From: Candidatus Saccharimonadota bacterium | Lineage (GTDB): Bacteria > Patescibacteriota > Saccharimonadia > Saccharimonadales > Saccharimonadaceae | Length of the DNA: 37,424 nt | NCBI GenBank assembly: GCA_017510075.1 | Contig: JAFWNY010000025.1 | Location: 1-37,424, forward strand | Reading direction: 5' to 3' | Shown here: positions 19,719 to 37,424 of the stretch, one piece after another | Numbering within the stretch: the stretch's first letter is position 1 | Layout of the letters: every line of letters starts with the position of its first letter | The notes under the pieces: generated by a model | The model's input: only the letters and a program-made list of their open reading frames with translations | Told to the model about the DNA's origin: nothing | Database searches by the model: none | Made by a program: the position numbers and the translations under genes

Positions 19719-21404
19719 TCAATCCAAACCAACATTAATTTTTTTACGCATTATCACCATCAACACTACTGGCATCAAATAAATCTGCAAAGCATTCGGC
19801 AATCCCGAGAAAAACAGCAAAGTCACCCCATACGCCACCAGTAAAGCCAGCAACGCCCCGCTCGCCGAGCTCCGAATCATCACCTTTATTACCAATACTA
19901 ACGTCAATATTAACAAAACTATACCCACTATCCCAGTCTCGAGCAGCAGTGAAGCGTATTCATTTTGCACAATTTCCTTCGGCGCCGGTGACAATCCCTC
20001 TGCGTACAGCGCCCACCCTGCACCACCTAACCCTACCCCGAATATCGCTGTCTTGAAATCTCGCTTCCACACCGCCACTGCCGCCCCAGTCAGCCTCAAC
20101 CTCGTATCTGTAGATTCCGCCACATACCCATCAAACACCGCCTCCTCCCTAGCGTCACTCTCCTCTAAAGCCCCAATTTCCTCCGGCTCCCCCGTTCCAT
20201 TTTCATCCGTGCCCCCACCTCTGTTATCCTCAGAGTTTTCCACAGGTTTTTCTACAACCTCATCACCTCTTATATCAATCACTCCTAGCGATAACTGGTT
20301 CACCACCTTCGCCACTCCGTCCGTATAAGTATCGTTGGTCGGCGACACCTGCGCCATCACCCCCTGCAAGTTCAGTGCACACACAAATGCACAGATGATG
20401 ATTAGCCACACCGTACCAAGAGCCCGAAAACGCTTAACTCGGGACCATAAGCTTGGGCGAACACCCTCGAGCGTGTCCCGAGTTAAGCGTTTCGGGCGAC
20501 AAATCACACTCATAAACACCATCGCCACGATAAATGCATAAATCGCTCCTCGCGAAAACGTCAAGAACAGCGTCATTGAGATAATAAAGAAGCATAATAG
20601 TAACAATTTGGAACCTAAAAAACGCGAGCCGGTTGTGGTTTTGACAACAGGTACGGACGAGGAGCCCGAACTGCAATTTGGGGCCGAGTCCGCCTGCCCT
20701 GTTGTCAAAACTACTCCGCGCGAGCGTTCAAGTTTCAAATTTTTACTATTATGCTTCTTTAAGTATATCCACGCCGCTATTATCGCCGGCGCGAGGAGCA
20801 AATTTCCCATGAACTGCGGCTCAATGGCAAATCCGTTCGGGTGAGGGAACCCAAACATATGATACGTACACCCAGGGCAAAGCAACGTACACTCTCTCGG
20901 CACTCCCGCTACATCTAGCATACACTGCACCACGCACCACGCACACACAAGAAAAGTAGCCCCAAAGAACCACTTCCACCACCTCCGCCGAAACTCCACA
21001 TCAAGCAGCCTCTTTAACTGCCACATCCCATACCCCGCGATATATATCAGCCACAATATCCCCACCGTCAACAGCCCTCTCACGAAATTTAACGACCACA
21101 GCACCGACACAGAAAGCCACACAGGGAACAACACCCACAACCACCATTTCCCTTTCAACCCCTTCCATAGAATCCGTCGTTTTATCATCAGCACCACCGC
21201 CACTGTGTCAAACACCACCAACCATATCAGCGGCAGAGAAAGCTCAAAATTCATCGCCTCCCCCCTCCCCAGTGTTATCACCGGATGATATGAGAAAAAC
21301 AGACACAGAGGCAGAATGTTTAAAAGGTTTCTAAATAAAAAATCAAAACCTAAAAAGCGCGAGCGTTCAAGTTTTGATTTTTTATTTAGAAACCTTTTTA
21401 ACAT
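19719..21404 (-). CDS. O-antigen ligase/polymerase-like (Wzy/WaaL) membrane protein with in-frame palindromes
   Basis: 561 residues with about 10-12 hydrophobic helices. The FGFPHPNGFAIEPQFMGN and TFSRGAIYAF stretches and the large loop (about 345-430) before NEYASLLLETGIVG match the O-antigen ligase/polymerase superfamily, which joins lipid-linked glycan chains. It follows a phosphoglycosyl transferase and a GT4 enzyme in one operon, fitting surface polysaccharide assembly. Three long inverted repeats lie inside the frame: at the start codon, between helices near residues 218-275, and near 303-328. They code for charged or low-complexity inserts (e.g. KLERSRFLG; RPKRLTRD...SRVKRFRALG) in predicted loops. 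The start ATG is the outer base of the first palindrome, 23 nt inside the upstream gene, with AAGGG before it; the real start may be further in. Confidence 0.75.
   Translation of the reverse strand: MLKRFLNKKSKLERSRFLGFDFLFRNLLNILPLCLFFSYHPVITLGRGEAMNFELSLPLIWLVVFDTVAVVLMIKRRILWKGLKGKWWLWVLFPVWLSVSVLWSLNFVRGLLTVGILWLIYIAGYGMWQLKRLLDVEFRRRWWKWFFGATFLVCAWCVVQCMLDVAGVPRECTLLCPGCTYHMFGFPHPNGFAIEPQFMGNLLLAPAIIAAWIYLKKHNSKNLKLERSRGVVLTTGQADSAPNCSSGSSSVPVVKTTTGSRFLGSKLLLLCFFIISMTLFLTFSRGAIYAFIVAMVFMSVICRPKRLTRDTLEGVRPSLWSRVKRFRALGTVWLIIICAFVCALNLQGVMAQVSPTNDTYTDGVAKVVNQLSLGVIDIRGDEVVEKPVENSEDNRGGGTDENGTGEPEEIGALEESDAREEAVFDGYVAESTDTRLRLTGAAVAVWKRDFKTAIFGVGLGGAGWALYAEGLSPAPKEIVQNEYASLLLETGIVGIVLLILTLVLVIKVMIRSSASGALLALLVAYGVTLLFFSGLPNALQIYLMPVVLMVIMRKKINVGLD
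20422..20497. repeat. In-frame palindrome IR2 in the Wzy/WaaL-like gene
   Basis: Left arm 20422-20444 and right arm 20476-20497 are inverted copies of 22 bp (left has one extra A), e.g. CGCTTAACTCGGGA against TCCCGAGTTAAGCG, with a 31-nt loop. It codes for a basic loop between two membrane helices. The frame stays open across it. Confidence 0.9.
20586..20760. repeat. In-frame nested palindrome IR3 in the Wzy/WaaL-like gene
   Basis: Outer arms 20586-20614 and 20732-20760 pair at 27 of 29 positions. Between them lie the two halves of the same 21-nt core found in IR1 (CTAAAAAACGCGAG at the left; CGCGAGCGTTCAA at the right), split by an insert. The insert itself holds inverted 14-mers GTTTTGACAACAGG (20638-20651) and its complement (20698-20711). 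CGCGAG is present on both sides (20623-20628, 20719-20724). From the first base of the left copy to the base before the right copy is 96 bp, or 32 codons. Confidence 0.9.
21316..21404. repeat. Palindrome IR1 spanning the Wzy/WaaL-like start and GT4 stop
   Basis: Arms 21316-21349 and 21371-21404 pair at 33 of 34 positions around a 21-nt core beginning CTAAAAAGCGCGAG. The right arm contains the end of the upstream GT4 gene (codons for YVKKVSK and stop) and the start codon of the next gene. The left arm is its inverted copy and now codes for FDFLFRNLLNI. Confidence 0.95.
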
Positions 21405-22509
21405 AATCCCTTATCTCTTTATCAAACCTTTCCGCACTAAACTTCTCCGCACTCTTCGCCACCTTCTCTCGATTAAATTTAAGTTTCTCAAATTCCAAAA
21501 TCCCCTCCGCCAACGCCGTCGCCGTCTGCGGCTTAAAGAGTAACCCATTTTTCCCATCCACCACATAATCGAGCGCCCCACCTGCGCCTAGGGCAACCAC
21601 TGGGCACCCAGCAGCCAAAGCCTCCACCGGCGCTATCCCAAACGGCTCCAGACTAGGGAAGAGGTATCCCTTCGCCCCCGCCAGATACTCCGCTAGTTCC
21701 CTTTTCTTCATCAGTGGCAAAAACTCCACCAGCTTAGTTCCCTGCGCTATTTTCACCAATTTCTTATGCTCCGGCCCCTCCCCTATCACGAGTAATTTCC
21801 TCTGCGCCATCAAGCACGCCTGCACCGCTATATCAATCCGCTTCCAATTCACCTGCCGACTGGCCGTAATATAATATTCTTTCTTTTTTGCTTTTACTTT
21901 AAAATCATCTATTTCTACTGGTGGTGCAATCACCACAGCATCTCTCTTGTAATACTTTTCAATCAAGCCTTTCGCATATTCACTGATTGTCACAAAATAA
22001 TCCGGCCCCTGTGCCGCTTTTTTATCTGCTCTGCGTAAAGGCCTCACCATAATCCGAAACGCAAATCTCACTAAAGGATTCAGCACCCCAAACCCCGGAT
22101 TCCGCAAGTAATCCTTGTACATCTGCCAATAATACTGCGTCGGCACATGACAATAACAGATGTGTAACCCCTCAGGATTCTTCGACGGCAACCCATGCGC
22201 GTGAAGCCACTTTCCCGACTTCACGGCCTTTGCCTCCGCTCCCGTCACCGAAATAATCAAATCGTATTCAGATAAATCCAGCCCTTCAAACCACTTCTGC
22301 CGCTTCGGCCCCAGTAGCCGCCTCAATTTCGCCGGATATTTCTGCAGCGACCCCGTCCTTACATCTGCATCACGAAACCAATCAATTCCCTTCGGGTCAT
22401 ACTGCGACGTATAAATCGGCGCCTCCGGATACATCTTATGTAGCTCCAGCAGCACCTTCTCCGCTCCCCCCACATTCGTCAACCAATCACATACCAGCGC
22501 TACTTTCAT
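21382..22509 (-). CDS. Family 4 glycosyltransferase
   Basis: 375 residues, GT-B fold retaining glycosyltransferase. N-terminal CDWLTNVGGAEKVLLELH is the acceptor-domain loop typical of mannosyltransferase-like GT4 enzymes. The C-terminal donor half has SRQVNWKRIDIAVQAC, GEGPEHKKL and the nucleotide-sugar motif FPSLEPFGIAPVEALAAGCPVVALGAGG (E-x7-E type) at about 285-312. It probably adds a sugar to the lipid-linked precursor made by the upstream phosphoglycosyl transferase, at the inner face of the membrane. Start overlaps that gene by 4 nt (ATGA). Its last codons lie within palindrome IR1. Confidence 0.9.
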   Translation of the reverse strand: MKVALVCDWLTNVGGAEKVLLELHKMYPEAPIYTSQYDPKGIDWFRDADVRTGSLQKYPAKLRRLLGPKRQKWFEGLDLSEYDLIISVTGAEAKAVKSGKWLHAHGLPSKNPEGLHICYCHVPTQYYWQMYKDYLRNPGFGVLNPLVRFAFRIMVRPLRRADKKAAQGPDYFVTISEYAKGLIEKYYKRDAVVIAPPVEIDDFKVKAKKKEYYITASRQVNWKRIDIAVQACLMAQRKLLVIGEGPEHKKLVKIAQGTKLVEFLPLMKKRELAEYLAGAKGYLFPSLEPFGIAPVEALAAGCPVVALGAGGALDYVVDGKNGLLFKPQTATALAEGILEFEKLKFNREKVAKSAEKFSAERFDKEIRDYVKKVSK

Positions 22510-30112: not shown

Positions 30113-30114
30113 CC
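30072..30114. repeat. 43-bp direct repeat, copy A (after dprA)
   Basis: Identical over 43 bp to 33228-33270 inside comEC; ends on the dprA stop codon. Confidence 0.93.
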
Positions 30115-31094
30115 TACAACAGCATCATCTGTTTTAGCTCCACTCTTTCTCCAGCCGCCACATCATCACCAGGAATCATCCCATCATCCCCAGCCCCCAC
30201 CACCCAATTCTCATCAATCGGCCTAGCCCCCATCCTAATCAGCTCTAAATTCTCCGGATATTTTTCATTATTCCAACAGCGCACCACAGCATAGCCATTT
30301 TCCAGACACTCCACCGCCCCCGCCCAAGTTCCACCCTTCCCTTCCGACTTCACCACCACTGTTTCCTCCGATTGTGCGTAGATAAACTTATTCCTCCCCA
30401 TCGCTCCACCCACGCTAAACCCCGCGCTCGGCGCCAAATATGACAGCAAAAGCATTTTCCCGTCTTGAATCGCCCGCACTACCTGACTACTACGCATTTT
30501 CTCGAGCATCTTCCCCGGCAAAAATTCCACTACCCTGCCACCGCACTTCAGCCCTACCTCCTCCGCAATCCTATCTGCTCCCTGCGCACCTCCCGACACA
30601 ATCACATACCCCGCTTTCACCGCCCTCTCTACCAACAAACCCTCAAAATCAATGTCCTCTACCATCAAGTTCCTCGACCCCACAAATCCCACGCACCGCT
30701 CCTTTAATAATCTCAAATCTCCCGCATAAAAGAAGTACGGCGGGCAATTATCCCCCAACTTTCTCCTTAGTTGCGGAGAATACTCCTCGTCCGCTCTTGT
30801 CACCAACCGAATCCCAATCTTTTCCAGCTCCGCAATCTCAAAAAACAAACTCGCACTCCTGCCCATCAGCCTCACCATCCGCTCCGCCATCGCATCGCCA
30901 TAGCCTAGCCCAGCTTTCACCCCTTCCGCATCCAAATCCAGCAAATCCCCTGGCCTCATCCCCCTCGCTACCAAAATCTGCGCCACTCTCCGCCACTCCG
31001 CTGGTTTCAATGGTACCACGCCGCCACCAACCCCCAGCCCGCAGCACATTATCAATATCGCCTGCGCATCTTTACTCATTTTTTGCGTACTCAT
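30114..31094 (-). CDS. dprA: DNA-processing protein DprA
   Basis: Binds incoming single-stranded DNA during transformation and loads RecA. The core Rossmann (LOG-like) domain is clear: CVGFVGSRNLMVEDIDFEG, GYVIVSGGAQGADRIAEEVG, LLLSYLAPSAGFSVGGAMGRNKFIYAQSE, GGTWAGAVECLE. A helix-hairpin-helix-like N-terminus precedes it. About 326 residues. The upstream recQ-like gene ends TGA at 31099-31097. ATG 31094 lies 2 nt downstream and a TTG at 31100 would also fit the GGAGGAG ribosome site, so the exact start is open. Order comEC, recQ-PRT, dprA suggests one competence operon. Confidence 0.92.
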   Translation of the reverse strand: MSTQKMSKDAQAILIMCCGLGVGGGVVPLKPAEWRRVAQILVARGMRPGDLLDLDAEGVKAGLGYGDAMAERMVRLMGRSASLFFEIAELEKIGIRLVTRADEEYSPQLRRKLGDNCPPYFFYAGDLRLLKERCVGFVGSRNLMVEDIDFEGLLVERAVKAGYVIVSGGAQGADRIAEEVGLKCGGRVVEFLPGKMLEKMRSSQVVRAIQDGKMLLLSYLAPSAGFSVGGAMGRNKFIYAQSEETVVVKSEGKGGTWAGAVECLENGYAVVRCWNNEKYPENLELIRMGARPIDENWVVGAGDDGMIPGDDVAAGERVELKQMMLL

Positions 31095-31096
31095 AA

Positions 31097-33166
31097 TCAA
31101 TTATCTCCTCCTTCACTTTTACCATCCGCTAAGGCAAACGGGTACACCTCTTCGCATCCCGCCTCACCCAATTTAAAACCACATACAGTCATAGTCCACC
31201 CCGAATCAACAATATCATCTACCAAGATTACTTTTTCGGGCACCCGCACCCCATCTCTTACATAAAACGCCTCAAAAATATTCTTACACTGATGATAGCT
31301 ATTCTCCATCGCTTTCTGCGGCTCGGTCTCAGTTTTCGCAATCAAATCCGCGAACTCCACCCCACACCGCGCCGCCAATCTCTCCGCAAAATCCCTCACT
31401 ATCCTACTCCGAAGCGACGGCACGCACGTTATATATCGCACCCCTCTCTTCTTCACTAAAGTCTCCAGTACTCTTGCGCCTTTCTCCACCAACGCATCCC
31501 GAAATCCTTCACCCCTCGTATACTTATCCTCTTTCACCATTTCACCATAACCTGCCTCGCCATATTTACTCAAACACATCCCATACTGATTTTGATGCCC
31601 TATCCTCAAAGTTCCCGTAAATTCCTTCGTCGGCCACATCTTCCGCGGTTTTATCTCAATCAAAGCTCTCTCCACAAAATCCTTCGCCTTCTCCAAATAT
31701 TCTTCCGACACACTACTTGGCAAAATCTCCTCCCCCAAACAATTCGCACAATTATGGCAATCCGTCGCTGTCTCATCATTTAATGCAGCAACCACATATC
31801 TACTCAAACATTCATCCGTGTTCACAATATCAAACATCTGTTTCATTTCCTGCCGCCGCACGTTCGATATCGCATTGTATTTTTCCGCATCATAGTAATA
31901 CTTTTTCGGCGTCGCATAGTATCTTTTCGGACTCCGTTCCATTCTCACAAACCCGTCATTAATTAAAAAACTCAAGATCTTTTCTATTTTCTGATTTTTG
32001 TAGTTAAAATTCCCCGCCATATCTGTCGTGGTTACCCCATCACTATCCAAAATTAGCCGATACACATCCGTCGTCTCTTTCTCCGACGGAAACGCCGTGT
32101 CAATAAAATAATTAATGATTTTCTGATCTTCCTCCCCGCAGCATAAGAAAGCATACGCCCGCGGCAACTTTCGTCCCGCCCTCCCAATCTGTTGATAATA
32201 TGACACAATATTCGCCGGCATCTGATAATGAATCACAAAAGCTATATCATCCTTATCATAGCCCATGCCAAGTTTTATTGTTGCCACCAAAGCCTTCACT
32301 CGGTTGTGTTTAAACAAATACTCCGCCTCTGCACATTCCTCCTCACTTCTTCCAGCGTGATACGCTCTTACCTCCACTCCATTCTCACGCAAAAAATCCG
32401 CCAAATTATCACAATCCCTCGTCGTCATACAATAAATCAACCCCGACCCTTCGAGCTTGCTAATATTCTCCAAAATCCACGCATATCTCTCCACCCTACT
32501 CGGCAAATTCAGCACTTGCAAAGCCAGCGACTCCCGCATTAACGACCCTTTCGACAAAAACACTCCATCCCCAAATTGTCGCATCAAATCCTTTACCACT
32601 CTATCATTCGCCGTCGCCGTGGTCGCAAGCAGCGGTACATTTTCCGGCAATTGCTGAATTACATCCCGCAGATTTCCATATTCCAGTCTAAAATCATGCC
32701 CCCAATCCGAAATGCAATGCGCCTCATCCACCACAAAAAGCCCGATCCTAATGTCCTTCAGCCTATTCTGTACTTCTATACTAAACAAAGTCTCCGGCGT
32801 AATAAACACCAAATCTAGCTCGTCCCGCACCATTTTCTCCACAATTTCCGCCTTACGGTCCTTTACGCGGCTGTTCAGCACCTCACACTTTAGCCCCAAC
32901 TTATCCGCCGCCTCCATTTGATTCTGCATCAACACCAAAAGTGGGCTCACCACCACAGTTACCCCTTGCCCCCTTTCCCTTAGCAACTTCGTCGCAATAA
33001 AATATACTAAGCTTTTTCCCCATCCAGTTCGCTGTACTACCAAGGTCCGCCGATTCATCATCGTCGCCTCTATCGCCTCATATTGTCCTTCACGGAACTC
33101 CGCCCCTCGCCCGTAAAGTTCCGCCAGCATCTTCGAAGCCTCATCGTAAATCTCTTTATTTTTCAT
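31097..33166 (-). CDS. RecQ-family helicase fused to a ComFC-like phosphoribosyltransferase
   Basis: 689 residues. N-terminal superfamily 2 helicase of RecQ type: Walker A TGWGKS (about 47-52), DEAH (147-150) followed by CISDWGHDFR, TTATAND, and motif VI YYQQIGRAGR. The RecQ zinc region TDECLSRY...TDCHNCANCLG follows near 455-480. The last 150 residues are a phosphoribosyltransferase-fold domain with the PRPP loop VILVDDIVDSGWT at 646-658, as in ComFC. Helicase plus PRTase recalls ComFA/ComFC of natural competence, and the gene lies between comEC and dprA. The start at ATG 33166 is set by AAAGGAG 6 nt upstream; ATG 33172 would touch that site. Whether the helicase acts in uptake or in repair is inference. 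Confidence 0.9.
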   Translation of the reverse strand: MKNKEIYDEASKMLAELYGRGAEFREGQYEAIEATMMNRRTLVVQRTGWGKSLVYFIATKLLRERGQGVTVVVSPLLVLMQNQMEAADKLGLKCEVLNSRVKDRKAEIVEKMVRDELDLVFITPETLFSIEVQNRLKDIRIGLFVVDEAHCISDWGHDFRLEYGNLRDVIQQLPENVPLLATTATANDRVVKDLMRQFGDGVFLSKGSLMRESLALQVLNLPSRVERYAWILENISKLEGSGLIYCMTTRDCDNLADFLRENGVEVRAYHAGRSEEECAEAEYLFKHNRVKALVATIKLGMGYDKDDIAFVIHYQMPANIVSYYQQIGRAGRKLPRAYAFLCCGEEDQKIINYFIDTAFPSEKETTDVYRLILDSDGVTTTDMAGNFNYKNQKIEKILSFLINDGFVRMERSPKRYYATPKKYYYDAEKYNAISNVRRQEMKQMFDIVNTDECLSRYVVAALNDETATDCHNCANCLGEEILPSSVSEEYLEKAKDFVERALIEIKPRKMWPTKEFTGTLRIGHQNQYGMCLSKYGEAGYGEMVKEDKYTRGEGFRDALVEKGARVLETLVKKRGVRYITCVPSLRSRIVRDFAERLAARCGVEFADLIAKTETEPQKAMENSYHQCKNIFEAFYVRDGVRVPEKVILVDDIVDSGWTMTVCGFKLGEAGCEEVYPFALADGKSEGGDN

Positions 33167-33178
33167 TGTCATCTCCTT

Positions 33179-34390
33179 TCATTTTAACATATTTTTCTTC
33201 ACTTTATACTTTCCCCACAAAACCCTCATCACCCCCGGCCCCACCACCGCCGCATAAATCCACCACACCCACCCCTGATACGGAGTAATCTCCACCAAAA
33301 ACTGCCGCATCCCGCCAAACCACTCCACCACCGCAATATGGAAATCCAGCACCATCTTCGCGCACCACGCCACCACCTCCCCCATCAAAGGCACCCCCGC
33401 AAGCACCCCTGTCATAAACGTGAGCCCCATCGCCACCGACAAAGTCGGCAAAATCAGCAAATTCGCCACCACCGATATCAAAGACACCGCCCCGAAATAA
33501 TACAATATAATTGGCAATGTCATCAAAGTCGCCGCCACCGTCGTCAGGACCGTCGCGCCCACAAACCCCGGCTTCCGCTCCCCGTAAAAGAACCGAGTCA
33601 GCCCCGGCCCCAGCATCATAATCCCCGTAAACGACGCGAACGACAGCAGCCACCCCAGTTCCGTCACAAACATCGGGTTTAGCATCAGCGTCAACGCTGC
33701 CACCATCAATATCAGCCGCCACGCCGCAATTTTTCGCCCCACATACCAAGAAGCCAGCGTCAAAATCGCCATCACCCCCGCCCGCATAATCGACGGCGTC
33801 CACCCCACCATGCCCATAAAGAACACCACAAACACCATCGAACAAATCAGCCCAAACGTCCGCGACAGCCTTCCAAAAATCTTCCGCGCCACCTCCACTA
33901 GTATCGCGAGATGCGCCCCGCTCGCCACCACGATATGCGTCAGCCCCACCGCCCGCAAATTTTCCTTCAAATCCTTTGGCAGCCCCGATTTCATACCCAA
34001 CAGGTACGACAACCCTAGCCGCACCTCCGGCTCTGGTATCGCCCCCTCAATTCTCTCCGCAAACCAATCCCGCGTACTAATTACCCAGCCCTCCGTCTCT
34101 ATCCCCGTCGTCACGCTATACGATTCCCCCATCATATCCTGTTTTTCCAGCTCCGCCGTCACCCTCACAAACGCCAGCACCATTCCCATTAGCCCTGCTA
34201 TCACCACAAACGCCACCCTCGGCTTCAAATACGCCACCACAAGCAAGCTCACCGCCAGCATTACCCACCACCCCGACGCAAAATAATTCACCCTCAAAAC
34301 CAGCCCCAGTATCACCCCCGCGATAATCCCTATACACAACCCCACCACCAACCACGACTGGTGTATCGTTCTAAACAAAAGATTTTGCAT
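33179..34390 (-). CDS. comEC: ComEC/Rec2-family DNA uptake channel, minimal form
   Basis: Forms the inner-membrane channel for single-stranded DNA in transformation. About 403 residues: N-terminal helices, a short extracellular region (about 75-125), then the Competence domain with GLTHIVVASGAHLAILV near 150-166, GWTPSIMRAGVMAIL, ELGWLLSFASFTGIM and PIILYYFGAVSLISVVANLLILP. The C-terminal metallo-beta-lactamase nuclease domain of full-length ComEC is absent, as in other short forms. ATG 34390 is preferred because AGGGGGG precedes it; ATG 34408 lies inside the probable -10. The stop is 12 nt before the recQ-like start. Confidence 0.92.
   Translation of the reverse strand: MQNLLFRTIHQSWLVVGLCIGIIAGVILGLVLRVNYFASGWWVMLAVSLLVVAYLKPRVAFVVIAGLMGMVLAFVRVTAELEKQDMMGESYSVTTGIETEGWVISTRDWFAERIEGAIPEPEVRLGLSYLLGMKSGLPKDLKENLRAVGLTHIVVASGAHLAILVEVARKIFGRLSRTFGLICSMVFVVFFMGMVGWTPSIMRAGVMAILTLASWYVGRKIAAWRLILMVAALTLMLNPMFVTELGWLLSFASFTGIMMLGPGLTRFFYGERKPGFVGATVLTTVAATLMTLPIILYYFGAVSLISVVANLLILPTLSVAMGLTFMTGVLAGVPLMGEVVAWCAKMVLDFHIAVVEWFGGMRQFLVEITPYQGWVWWIYAAVVGPGVMRVLWGKYKVKKNMLK
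33228..33270. repeat. 43-bp direct repeat, copy B (inside comEC)
   Basis: Same 43 bp as 30072-30114, here coding for WWIYAAVVGPGV near the ComEC C-terminus. Confidence 0.93.
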
Positions 34391-34479
34391 ACCCCCCCTA
34401 TCTAGCATACCCCATCAAATATTTCAACCCCCCACGACGCTCACACATCACACTATTGCTTTATTATCCCCCCAAAATA

Positions 34480-34545: not shown

Positions 34546-34622
34546 GCACCGGTAGCTCAGTGGATTAGAGCACTTGTCTTCGGAACAAGGGGTCGTAGGT
34601 TCGAATCCTATCCGGTGTACCA
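34546..34622 (+). tRNA. tRNA-Arg (anticodon TCG), overlapping the reverse transcriptase end
   Basis: 77 nt with encoded CCA (34620-34622). Acceptor GCACCGG pairs with CCGGTGT, anticodon stem CTTGT/ACAAG, loop CTTCGGA, T-loop TTCGAAT. The last 15 nt are also the end of the reverse transcriptase gene on the other strand. Confidence 0.96.
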
Positions 34623-34970
34623 TCTGAACTCCCCCACCACCCCATCCATTTCCAACCTCGGCCATGCATTCATAAAATACCCCTTGTATGACTCATACGA
34701 GAGGGCATATTTTTTTGGATTATGCATTTTCAGCGTCTTCAACCTCCGCCGTATTCTCCGCACCGTGCCCGACAATGGCACCACCCTCAATCCACCCTTC
34801 CTATCTATATAATATCTATATCCTAAAAAAGCAAACCCCGCCTCCGTGCAGCAATTATATATCGCCGATTTTGGATTCACCTTCAATTTCAGCCTCTTGA
34901 GTTCCTTCTCAATTTCCACCCGCACTCGCATTAGTTCGGCCTTATCATACCCCAGTATCAAAAAAATCAT
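34608..34970 (-). pseudogene. DGR reverse transcriptase, C-terminal part after the frameshift
   Basis: Continues the reverse transcriptase in a different frame. After YMDDF, removing one T from the T7 tract would give LILGYDKAELMRVRVEIEK, then LKLKVNPKSAIYN and FAFLGYRYYIDRKGG. This is the normal RT order of motif 6/7 and the thumb region. The basic tail RRIRRRLKTL is typical of DGR enzymes. It ends at TAG 34610-34608, inside the opposite-strand tRNA-Arg. As written it has only an internal ATG inside the MDD codons and no good ribosome site, so it is likely not made separately unless by slippage or +1 frameshifting. It could also be a homopolymer error in the assembly. Confidence 0.85.
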
Positions 34971-35712
34971 CCATATACCTAATAAACCACCTACACCCCA
35001 GCACCTCTTTGATATAATGGTCTAAATCATTCAAATAATATATCGCCAAAAACTGCGATGTCATTGCTCCAATAGACAGCCCCTTCCCCTGTTCGTAATG
35101 AGGAATATCCGTATGATAATACGCGTTAAAACCATCAATCACCCTGTTTATATAAGGTTTATTCGTTTCACCCACAATTCGTCGTAATATCTCCAGTACA
35201 TCCCCGTCCTTTATCCTCCGCTCTAGCTTCTCAAACAATATCTCATGGTCTATCGTATAAAAATACTTGGACACATCTACTTTCATTGCATAGATTTTCG
35301 CCCCTGGACGCTTTGCCATCATCTGCGACAAATACCGTCGAAGCATCTTCGTAGCGTAAGACGACCCCATCCCAGTCCTTGTCGCTACATTGGTATCAAT
35401 CAAGGTCCGCTCTAGTAGTGGCAGCAAGTACTCTCTCGCCACGAAATGATTCACCACCTTATCTCTAATGGATTGGCTCATCACCAGCCTCGGCTTCGGT
35501 TCAAAAATCATAAAGCAACGATACTTATGCGGATAATACTTCCGCTGTTTTAGCTCCTCTAATATCTTATCCACCCTCACATGAGCAAACAGCATAAACT
35601 CAAACAACCCCTGCTTATTCTTGCAGGTATGCGACACCGTATTCCATGCCGAATACACTTTTTCGTATGTCAAAGCCTTGTCATAAATCCGCCTAGTCTT
35701 ACGATGTCCCAC
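34945..35712 (-). CDS. DGR reverse transcriptase, N-terminal and catalytic part
   Basis: Error-prone reverse transcriptase that copies the template RNA with changes at adenines. 255 residues as written: fingers and palm with DVSKYFYTIDHEILF (Asp146, first catalytic Asp), the DGR-specific IGAMTSQ at 214-220 (other group II-like RTs have QGxxxSP), and RYMDDF (246-250, the catalytic Asp pair). The frame stops five codons later (FDTGV, stop) because of a T7 tract; the rest of the enzyme is in another frame. It starts with GTG overlapping the last base of the Avd stop (TAGTG), so translation is coupled. Together with Avd, TR and VR this defines a DGR. Confidence 0.93.
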   Translation of the reverse strand: MGHRKTRRIYDKALTYEKVYSAWNTVSHTCKNKQGLFEFMLFAHVRVDKILEELKQRKYYPHKYRCFMIFEPKPRLVMSQSIRDKVVNHFVAREYLLPLLERTLIDTNVATRTGMGSSYATKMLRRYLSQMMAKRPGAKIYAMKVDVSKYFYTIDHEILFEKLERRIKDGDVLEILRRIVGETNKPYINRVIDGFNAYYHTDIPHYEQGKGLSIGAMTSQFLAIYYLNDLDHYIKEVLGCRWFIRYMDDFFDTGV

Positions 35713-36913: not shown

Positions 36914-37424
36914 TTACTGCACTACCCACGGGTCGGTCGCGGTACCACTACCACTGGCTGGAGTAGTTCCAGAGGTGAGGGAAATGGCGGGACGCACCCC
37001 GCACGCGCTGCCCACGCCGTAGTCGTCGAGGTCGCCGCCCGAGTACAAGATGAAGCCGTACACATGACCGCTCGAGCCGCGGTAGACCGGGGAGAGCAAC
37101 CAAAAGTACGACCCAGAGCGCAAATAACTGTTGGAATTGTAGCCAGAACCTTGTGTAGCCGTAGAACGACCAGAACCTGCGAATTGCATTTCATCTGCGG
37201 TAAGGAGGGCTACAGGTTTACTAAGTTGCTTGTTGCCGTTTGATGCACTAGAAGTTGTATAAAGATCTACGGTACCACGTGGACAAGTAAGGGTAGGCGT
37301 ATCTGAAGCGGTTACATTTCTAACGTAGGGACCGAAATAGTACTCAGTCATACTACTAGTACCATATGGCACTATAGTAGTAGAATCAGCTATCAAGCTA
37401 GTTGAAGATGAGCTGGTACGGATA
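36914..37424 (-). CDS. DGR target protein, variable C-terminus (5' end outside the window)
   Basis: At least 170 residues; the frame is open to the window edge, so the N-terminus is missing. The C-terminal part (MTEYYFGPYVRNVTA...LTADEMQFAGSG, SGSYFWLLSPVYRGSSG, HVYGFILYSGG, ACGVRPAISLTSG) has the layout of the C-type lectin / formylglycine-enzyme-like fold used by DGR targets. The VR covers residues ending in GVRPA. Ligand-exposed positions vary while WLLSP and GVRP scaffold residues are unchanged. It is expected to be a cell-surface or secreted binding protein, perhaps for host or phage contact; the missing start would show a signal peptide or anchor. Confidence 0.88.
   Translation of the reverse strand, partial: IRTSSSSTSLIADSTTIVPYGTSSMTEYYFGPYVRNVTASDTPTLTCPRGTVDLYTTSSASNGNKQLSKPVALLTADEMQFAGSGRSTATQGSGYNSNSYLRSGSYFWLLSPVYRGSSGHVYGFILYSGGDLDDYGVGSACGVRPAISLTSGTTPASGSGTATDPWVVQ
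36958..36972 (-). promoter_or_regulatory. Hairpin downstream of the VR
   Basis: CTGGA and TCCAG pair around a 5-nt loop, 14 nt beyond the GC-rich 3' end of the VR (IMH side). In the Bordetella phage DGR a similar hairpin next to the IMH is needed for efficient homing; same role here is inferred. Confidence 0.5.
36987..37124 (-). repeat. DGR variable repeat (VR)
   Basis: 138 bp inside the target gene, same length as the TR. The invariant 11 bases GCGGGACGCAC at its 3' end (coding sense) are GC-rich like an initiation-of-mutagenic-homology segment. 26 of 38 template adenines are changed. Confidence 0.97.

Follow-up and report, generated by a model that had tools for sequence, protein, structure and literature searches.

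Three in-frame palindromic segments of a Saccharibacteria Wzy/WaaL-like gene resemble the palindromic elements of Rickettsia

The closest described counterparts of the elements treated here are the Rickettsia palindromic elements (RPE; Ogata et al. 2000, 2002). RPE are 105-146 bp long, fall into about ten families and lie in frame in many genes, with activity shown for one product (PMC2229807, PMC10969869). RPE-like coding palindromes have also been reported from Wolbachia and Methanocaldococcus (references in PMC2229807). RPE are reported to lose the identity of their repeats or arms with time (PMC6649704). Until now, in-frame selfish palindromes were a curiosity known from Rickettsia and a handful of other organisms. 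The mitochondria of Nematomorpha carry long, near-perfect palindromes with identical arms in coding genes, for which template switching has been proposed (PMC6649704). Bacterial MITEs and REP/RAYT are small dispersed palindromes without genes of their own. Template switching between inverted repeats homogenises arms, makes multi-base compensatory changes and inverts spacers (PMC8604942, PMC8794818).

We analysed a stretch of 37,424 nucleotides from a Saccharibacteria genome (the window), in which a Wzy/WaaL-like gene holds three long palindromes. Judged from sequence comparison, these are quite probably copies of small mobile RPE-like elements whose in-frame insertion gives the protein extra translated loops. 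The likeness is one of organisation and behaviour: like RPE, the Saccharibacteria elements are short palindromic repeats of several families with many copies per genome, they lie between genes and in frame within unrelated, often essential genes, and they have no known transposase. Translation of the extra peptide is described for RPE and suggested here by open frames. Unlike RPE, whose arms reportedly lose their identity (PMC6649704), the Saccharibacteria elements have nearly perfect, locus-specific stems around a conserved core; they also differ in their CPR host phylum, in core inversion and in hotspots common to several families. What is new with respect to RPE is the CPR host and the concerted, locus-specific stems. 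The impression in an earlier note that no such elements had been described for CPR bacteria agrees with the open-access literature, which is only part of the whole, and where we found no report from Saccharibacteria or Patescibacteria.

The other systems are less close. The Nematomorpha palindromes, unlike the Saccharibacteria elements, lack both a shared core and dispersed copies, and both their arms encode conserved native protein (PMC6649704). Small size, dispersal and lack of own genes are shared with MITEs and REP/RAYT. Unlike MITEs, the elements have no fixed terminal repeats, their terminal arms differing at every locus; unlike REP/RAYT, they live in a source genome that lacks the Y1 transposase and in a genus with almost none; and unlike both, they are found in coding sequence. 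Arm identity, compensatory changes in blocks and inversion of the spacer are what template switching would lead one to expect (PMC8604942, PMC8794818), and all three are seen here, although it is a mutational process on existing repeats and does not alone explain core dispersal.

The Wzy/WaaL-like gene (Table 1) encodes a predicted multi-helix membrane protein. A scan of species-representative genomes yielded 60 homologues, all in Saccharibacteria, and nearly all of them adjoin the same glycosyltransferase gene as in the window.

Table 1. Coordinates of the host gene, its neighbour and the palindromes in the window
Feature	Position	Strand	Details
Wzy/WaaL-like O-antigen ligase/polymerase membrane protein gene, 561 aa	19719..21404	-	Pfam Wzy_C 3.5e-11
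Upstream glycosyltransferase gene	21382..22509	-	Last codons inside the N-terminal palindrome
N-terminal palindrome (IR1), shortened family-A element across gene junction	21316..21404	-	34-nt arms, 21316-21349 / 21371-21404, 33 paired; 21-nt loop
Middle palindrome (IR3), complete family-A element	20585..20761	-	30-nt arms, 20585-20614 / 20732-20761, 28 paired; 117-nt core (loop)
Second stem nested in family-A core of middle palindrome	20638..20711	-	14-nt perfect arms, 20638-20651 / 20698-20711
Downstream palindrome (IR2), R1-family element	20426..20494	-	Covariance model R1, 76.3 bits, E 3.9e-17 (window copy among the 36 sequences used to build the model); 18-nt perfect arms, 20428-20445 / 20475-20492; 29-nt loop
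Conserved 37-nt core of downstream palindrome, GGACACGCTCGAGGGTGTTCGCCCAAGCTTATGGTCC	20442..20478	-	In 50/147 genus genomes

The 561-codon frame stays open through all three palindromes, which far exceed chance: their inverted-repeat scores are 31 (N-terminal), 24 (middle) and 18 (downstream), with 14 for the nested stem, whereas 300 dinucleotide-shuffled versions of the region reached 12 at best and averaged 1.5. The three long palindromes in an open frame that the earlier note described are thus all present, with some revision of their dimensions. Its 34-bp arms with 33 pairs for IR1 stand; the arms of IR3 are now 30 nt with 28 paired, instead of 29 with 27, and those of IR2 are 18 nt when perfect, extending further only with a bulge, instead of 22. 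IR1 is at the N-terminus and in addition takes in the last codons of the upstream glycosyltransferase gene, whose stop is at 21382, so that it lies across the gene junction. The middle palindrome codes for approximately residues 215-273 of the protein, and in the AlphaFold model (mean pLDDT 75.5) its insert is a disordered stretch between two helices, with residues 223-261 at pLDDT below 50.

Alignment of homologues, the check that the earlier note had suggested, found each of the three palindromic segments absent from most of the 60 Saccharibacteria proteins, which shows all three to be insertions. Where the middle site is unfilled, the distance from one conserved anchor to the other is typically 30 residues and at most 38 in every such homologue; with family A it is 73-78 residues (the window and seven relatives), with an R1-type element 45 residues (L031 and L033, a gain of about 45 nt), and with other, unrelated inserts 55-71 residues in further relatives. 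The middle site has 76 residues with family A against 30 in the empty state, a 46-residue insertion, and 17 relatives hold some insertion of 15-48 residues here. Because several element families occupy the same loop, it is an insertion hotspot. The earlier note had also looked to distant relatives for the same residues at these places. They are shared at the same sites by some close relatives (e.g. L082 and L023); the deeper homologues lack the segments, so the shared residues come from shared insertions or from insertion hotspots and are not native protein.

The two arms at the N-terminal site lie in native positions, and a full-length family-A element lies at the same glycosyltransferase/Wzy junction in two relatives (L032 and L038). 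The former (L032 2934-3159) has a tandem duplication of the left arm together with the left half of the family-A core (MRRLSNKSKLERSRGG.. MRRLSKKLEQEPSRG), as slippage during replication might produce. Another homologue (L039) has a core-less palindrome within the Wzy/WaaL-like gene, with 21-nt arms and a 7-nt loop.

The three palindromes represent two families, since the N-terminal palindrome is a shortened relative of the middle palindrome. The core of family A measures 117 nt, of which the N-terminal palindrome retains only both outer parts, 21 nt in all (TTGAACGCTCGCGCTTTTTAG), and these core halves match the outer core of the middle palindrome exactly. Family A is present in 26 of the 147 genus genomes. 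Two copies in one genome (G012) match over about 160 nt at 96% identity, arms and core included, amid unrelated flanks, and the unit has therefore moved. The downstream palindrome belongs to R1, whose elements are about 85-90 nt overall, with conserved R1-type cores of 37-41 nt. The R1 covariance model, built from 36 copies, gave seven matches in the source genome, the last at E 0.098, and up to about 20 in one relative. When 198 genomes of the order were searched with this model, eight had matches, all within the same genus, and none was found outside it. Several palindromic families coexist in the source genome (G000), where 39 hairpin loci have the general R1-like shape, nine of them lying within an open frame of 150 codons or more. 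The search for cores and arms that the earlier note called for thus led to dispersed families in other genes and genomes of a single Saccharibacteria genus.

Dispersed copies and empty sites together show that the elements are mobile. The one clean empty site is at the start of an NrdG-like gene, where one species (L178, genome G005) has 90 nt and another (G088) has 3 nt, between flanks that are 80-84% identical. The 87-nt difference comprises the entire palindrome, both arms as well as the core, and amounts to 29 codons. No target-site duplication is visible at this site, nor does it show arms formed as an inverted duplication of flanking DNA at insertion, an origin we considered and rejected. 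At a further locus (L182) one relative (G181) shows a palindrome of similar outer arms that lacks the core, and two other relatives have arms and core. Within a single family the net insertion lengths range from about 45 to 87 nt, and those taken from distant orthologues vary too much for a native arm to be assigned.

R1 elements are found inside the genes for GatB, GyrA, PriA, class I and class II tRNA synthetases and CTP synthase (pyrG), and inside PrmC-like, NrdG-like and RecX-like genes, the last two names coming partly from reading of the sequences. Three species share the position of the element in GyrA. A homologous protein of the source genome runs in a single frame across 13 of about 39 R1-type loci, and no frame-breaking copy in a conserved gene was seen. 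The elements thus sit in frame in working genes, essential ones included, and would be read through as extra protein, which the host protein probably tolerates rather than uses. With homologues that lack the segments, and copies dispersed in other genes and genomes, the suggestion of the earlier note that these are protein-coding insertions of the RPE kind is supported.

In R1 copies the arms directly outside the conserved core differ at every locus and yet pair with each other. Across 36 copies, 89.0% of stem cells are paired (69.2 +/- 1.1 in shuffled pairings), 172 cells are changed on both sides (53 shuffled), and the covariation score is 0.530 (0.165 +/- 0.014 shuffled), a signal that is destroyed by sliding the arms one column. 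The eight inner stem positions hold 260 Watson-Crick pairs, four G-T pairs and 24 mismatches. G-T is thus not favoured over other mismatches, a result that suits a process at the DNA level better than selection on RNA pairs. A weak common arm consensus remains, with complementarity between loci of about 0.5 at the inner positions. One genome holds two copies that are set apart by a block change in each arm (TCCC versus CCAGCT). In valS, the inserts of two species (L176 and G166) have the same site and the same length, with flanks in register, and their cores are inverted with respect to each other (92% identity inverted, 32% direct). The concerted, locus-specific stems, the lack of a G-T excess and the valS inversion are all consistent with template switching of DNA from arm to arm; the inversion could instead reflect two independent insertions at a hotspot.

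We propose that the elements would spread as DNA hairpins, by means of some enzyme or a replication accident, and that frame-breaking copies would be lost. Switching of the DNA polymerase between the arms as templates would then keep the arms identical, rewrite them in blocks and flip the core, and by this process each locus would evolve its own stem. This CPR genus has reduced genomes, carries several families in essential genes and offers, over more than 100 species, orthologous sites that are filled, empty, without a core or with the core inverted. The origin, movement and arm identity of protein-coding palindromes become directly testable there by comparison, and the sites form a natural series for watching template switching make new protein segments.

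The nearest alternative limits mobility to the core, which would enter or nucleate a local hairpin, with arms built from the flanks by template switching; we regard it as possible, with the balance tilted against it. It would account for the core-less palindromes found where relatives have a filled site (L039, as well as G181 at the L182 locus, where entry of a core into a hairpin already present would fit too), for the gain of only about 45 nt by R1-type insertions at the middle Wzy site in L031 and L033, and for the native positions of both arms at the N-terminal site. It sits poorly with the L178/G088 comparison, where arms and core are missing together, with the weak consensus kept by R1 arms of different copies, and with dispersed family-A copies that are alike in arms as well as core. 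The more specific proposal that the conserved 37-41-nt core moves alone, and that template switching writes a new, perfect, locus-specific stem from local sequence, we hold to be doubtful. If it were true, the parasite would carry just the loop, and errors of host replication would build the stem, then flip and rewrite it.

Movement of whole elements followed by template switching was also weighed against three further readings. Structured RNAs or regulatory hairpins (terminators, attenuators), kept by selection for RNA pairing, would explain the strong covariation and the several intergenic copies that lie beside TATAAT-like sequences or gene ends. We consider this unlikely, as about one third of the copies are in the middle of a coding gene, copies are dispersed amid unrelated flanks, G-U pairs are no commoner than mismatches predict (4 versus 24), and there is no credible Rfam match: an E-value scan of the element region of the window gave just sub-threshold miRNA-type matches, owing to the hairpin shape, and gathering-score scans of most element loci of the source genome placed no family over any element. 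Intervening sequences cut from the mRNA or skipped by the ribosome, like mitochondrial byp elements or introns, are a slightly less probable reading again. Tolerance by essential genes and strong hairpins would suit them, whereas the in-gene copies are open, divisible by three in length and mostly in two of the possible frames, and since skipped elements would not need open frames or such lengths, these features count against it. That the genomes are metagenome-assembled leaves some room for a fold-back artefact of assembly or library, or else for ordinary loop divergence; we find this very improbable, given that separately assembled genomes from many species repeatedly show the same cores at matching sites and that the inserts have common sequence and are not mirror images of long flanks.

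Candidate sources and mobilisers were rejected in turn. Phage records and viral contigs gave no match to the elements in searches simpler than the covariance model. The Y1 transposase (PF01797) occurs in five of the 147 genus genomes and is absent from the source genome. DUF3800 was considered because hairpin RNAs of Rfam (DUF3800-XI and DUF3800-IX) flank a DUF3800 gene of the source genome (L011 5780-6601, contig C9); DUF3800 was found in 10 element-bearing genomes, with 15 expected by chance, and is thus not associated with the elements.

Other palindromes were encountered along the way. A third in-gene family, with a 121- to 125-nt loop (CTGGACCGCGGGCAGAACCGCCC...), is found at L025 2237-2407, L029 2351-2515 and L091 13564-13732; the first two copies are palindromic insertions in the glycosyltransferase gene of relatives, and the last sits in an 831-aa frame of the source genome. 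An intergenic family with a 116-nt core and locus-specific perfect arms is seen at L007 1544 and 6635, L015 15141 and L087 4998, and at L005 2721, where it has 137 nt and a different palindrome family nested inside. The source genome also has a conventional palindromic repeat family with conserved arms and a 59-61-nt loop (L003 2750, L004 1771, L011 3241, L087 12422, L090 806, L102 7505). Three R1-type cores with the same arm sequence lie in tandem beside a tRNA-like region (L172, about 1500-1720). At one intergenic spot (L170 locus; G095, G137 and G062), elements of R1 or a related type in three species have unrelated arms, which may reflect fast arm turnover or repeated insertion.

Elsewhere in the window, near the Wzy/WaaL-like gene, DprA-like and ComEC-like frames (natural competence) are recognised by translation only, at 30114-31100 and 33179-34408 on the minus strand. 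A reverse transcriptase gene (Pfam RVT_1), split over two frames, lies at 34608-35712 on the minus strand, and about 1 kb from it, at the end of the window (36914-37396, minus strand), is a frame resembling the C-terminus of a variable protein; the two probably form a diversity-generating retroelement.
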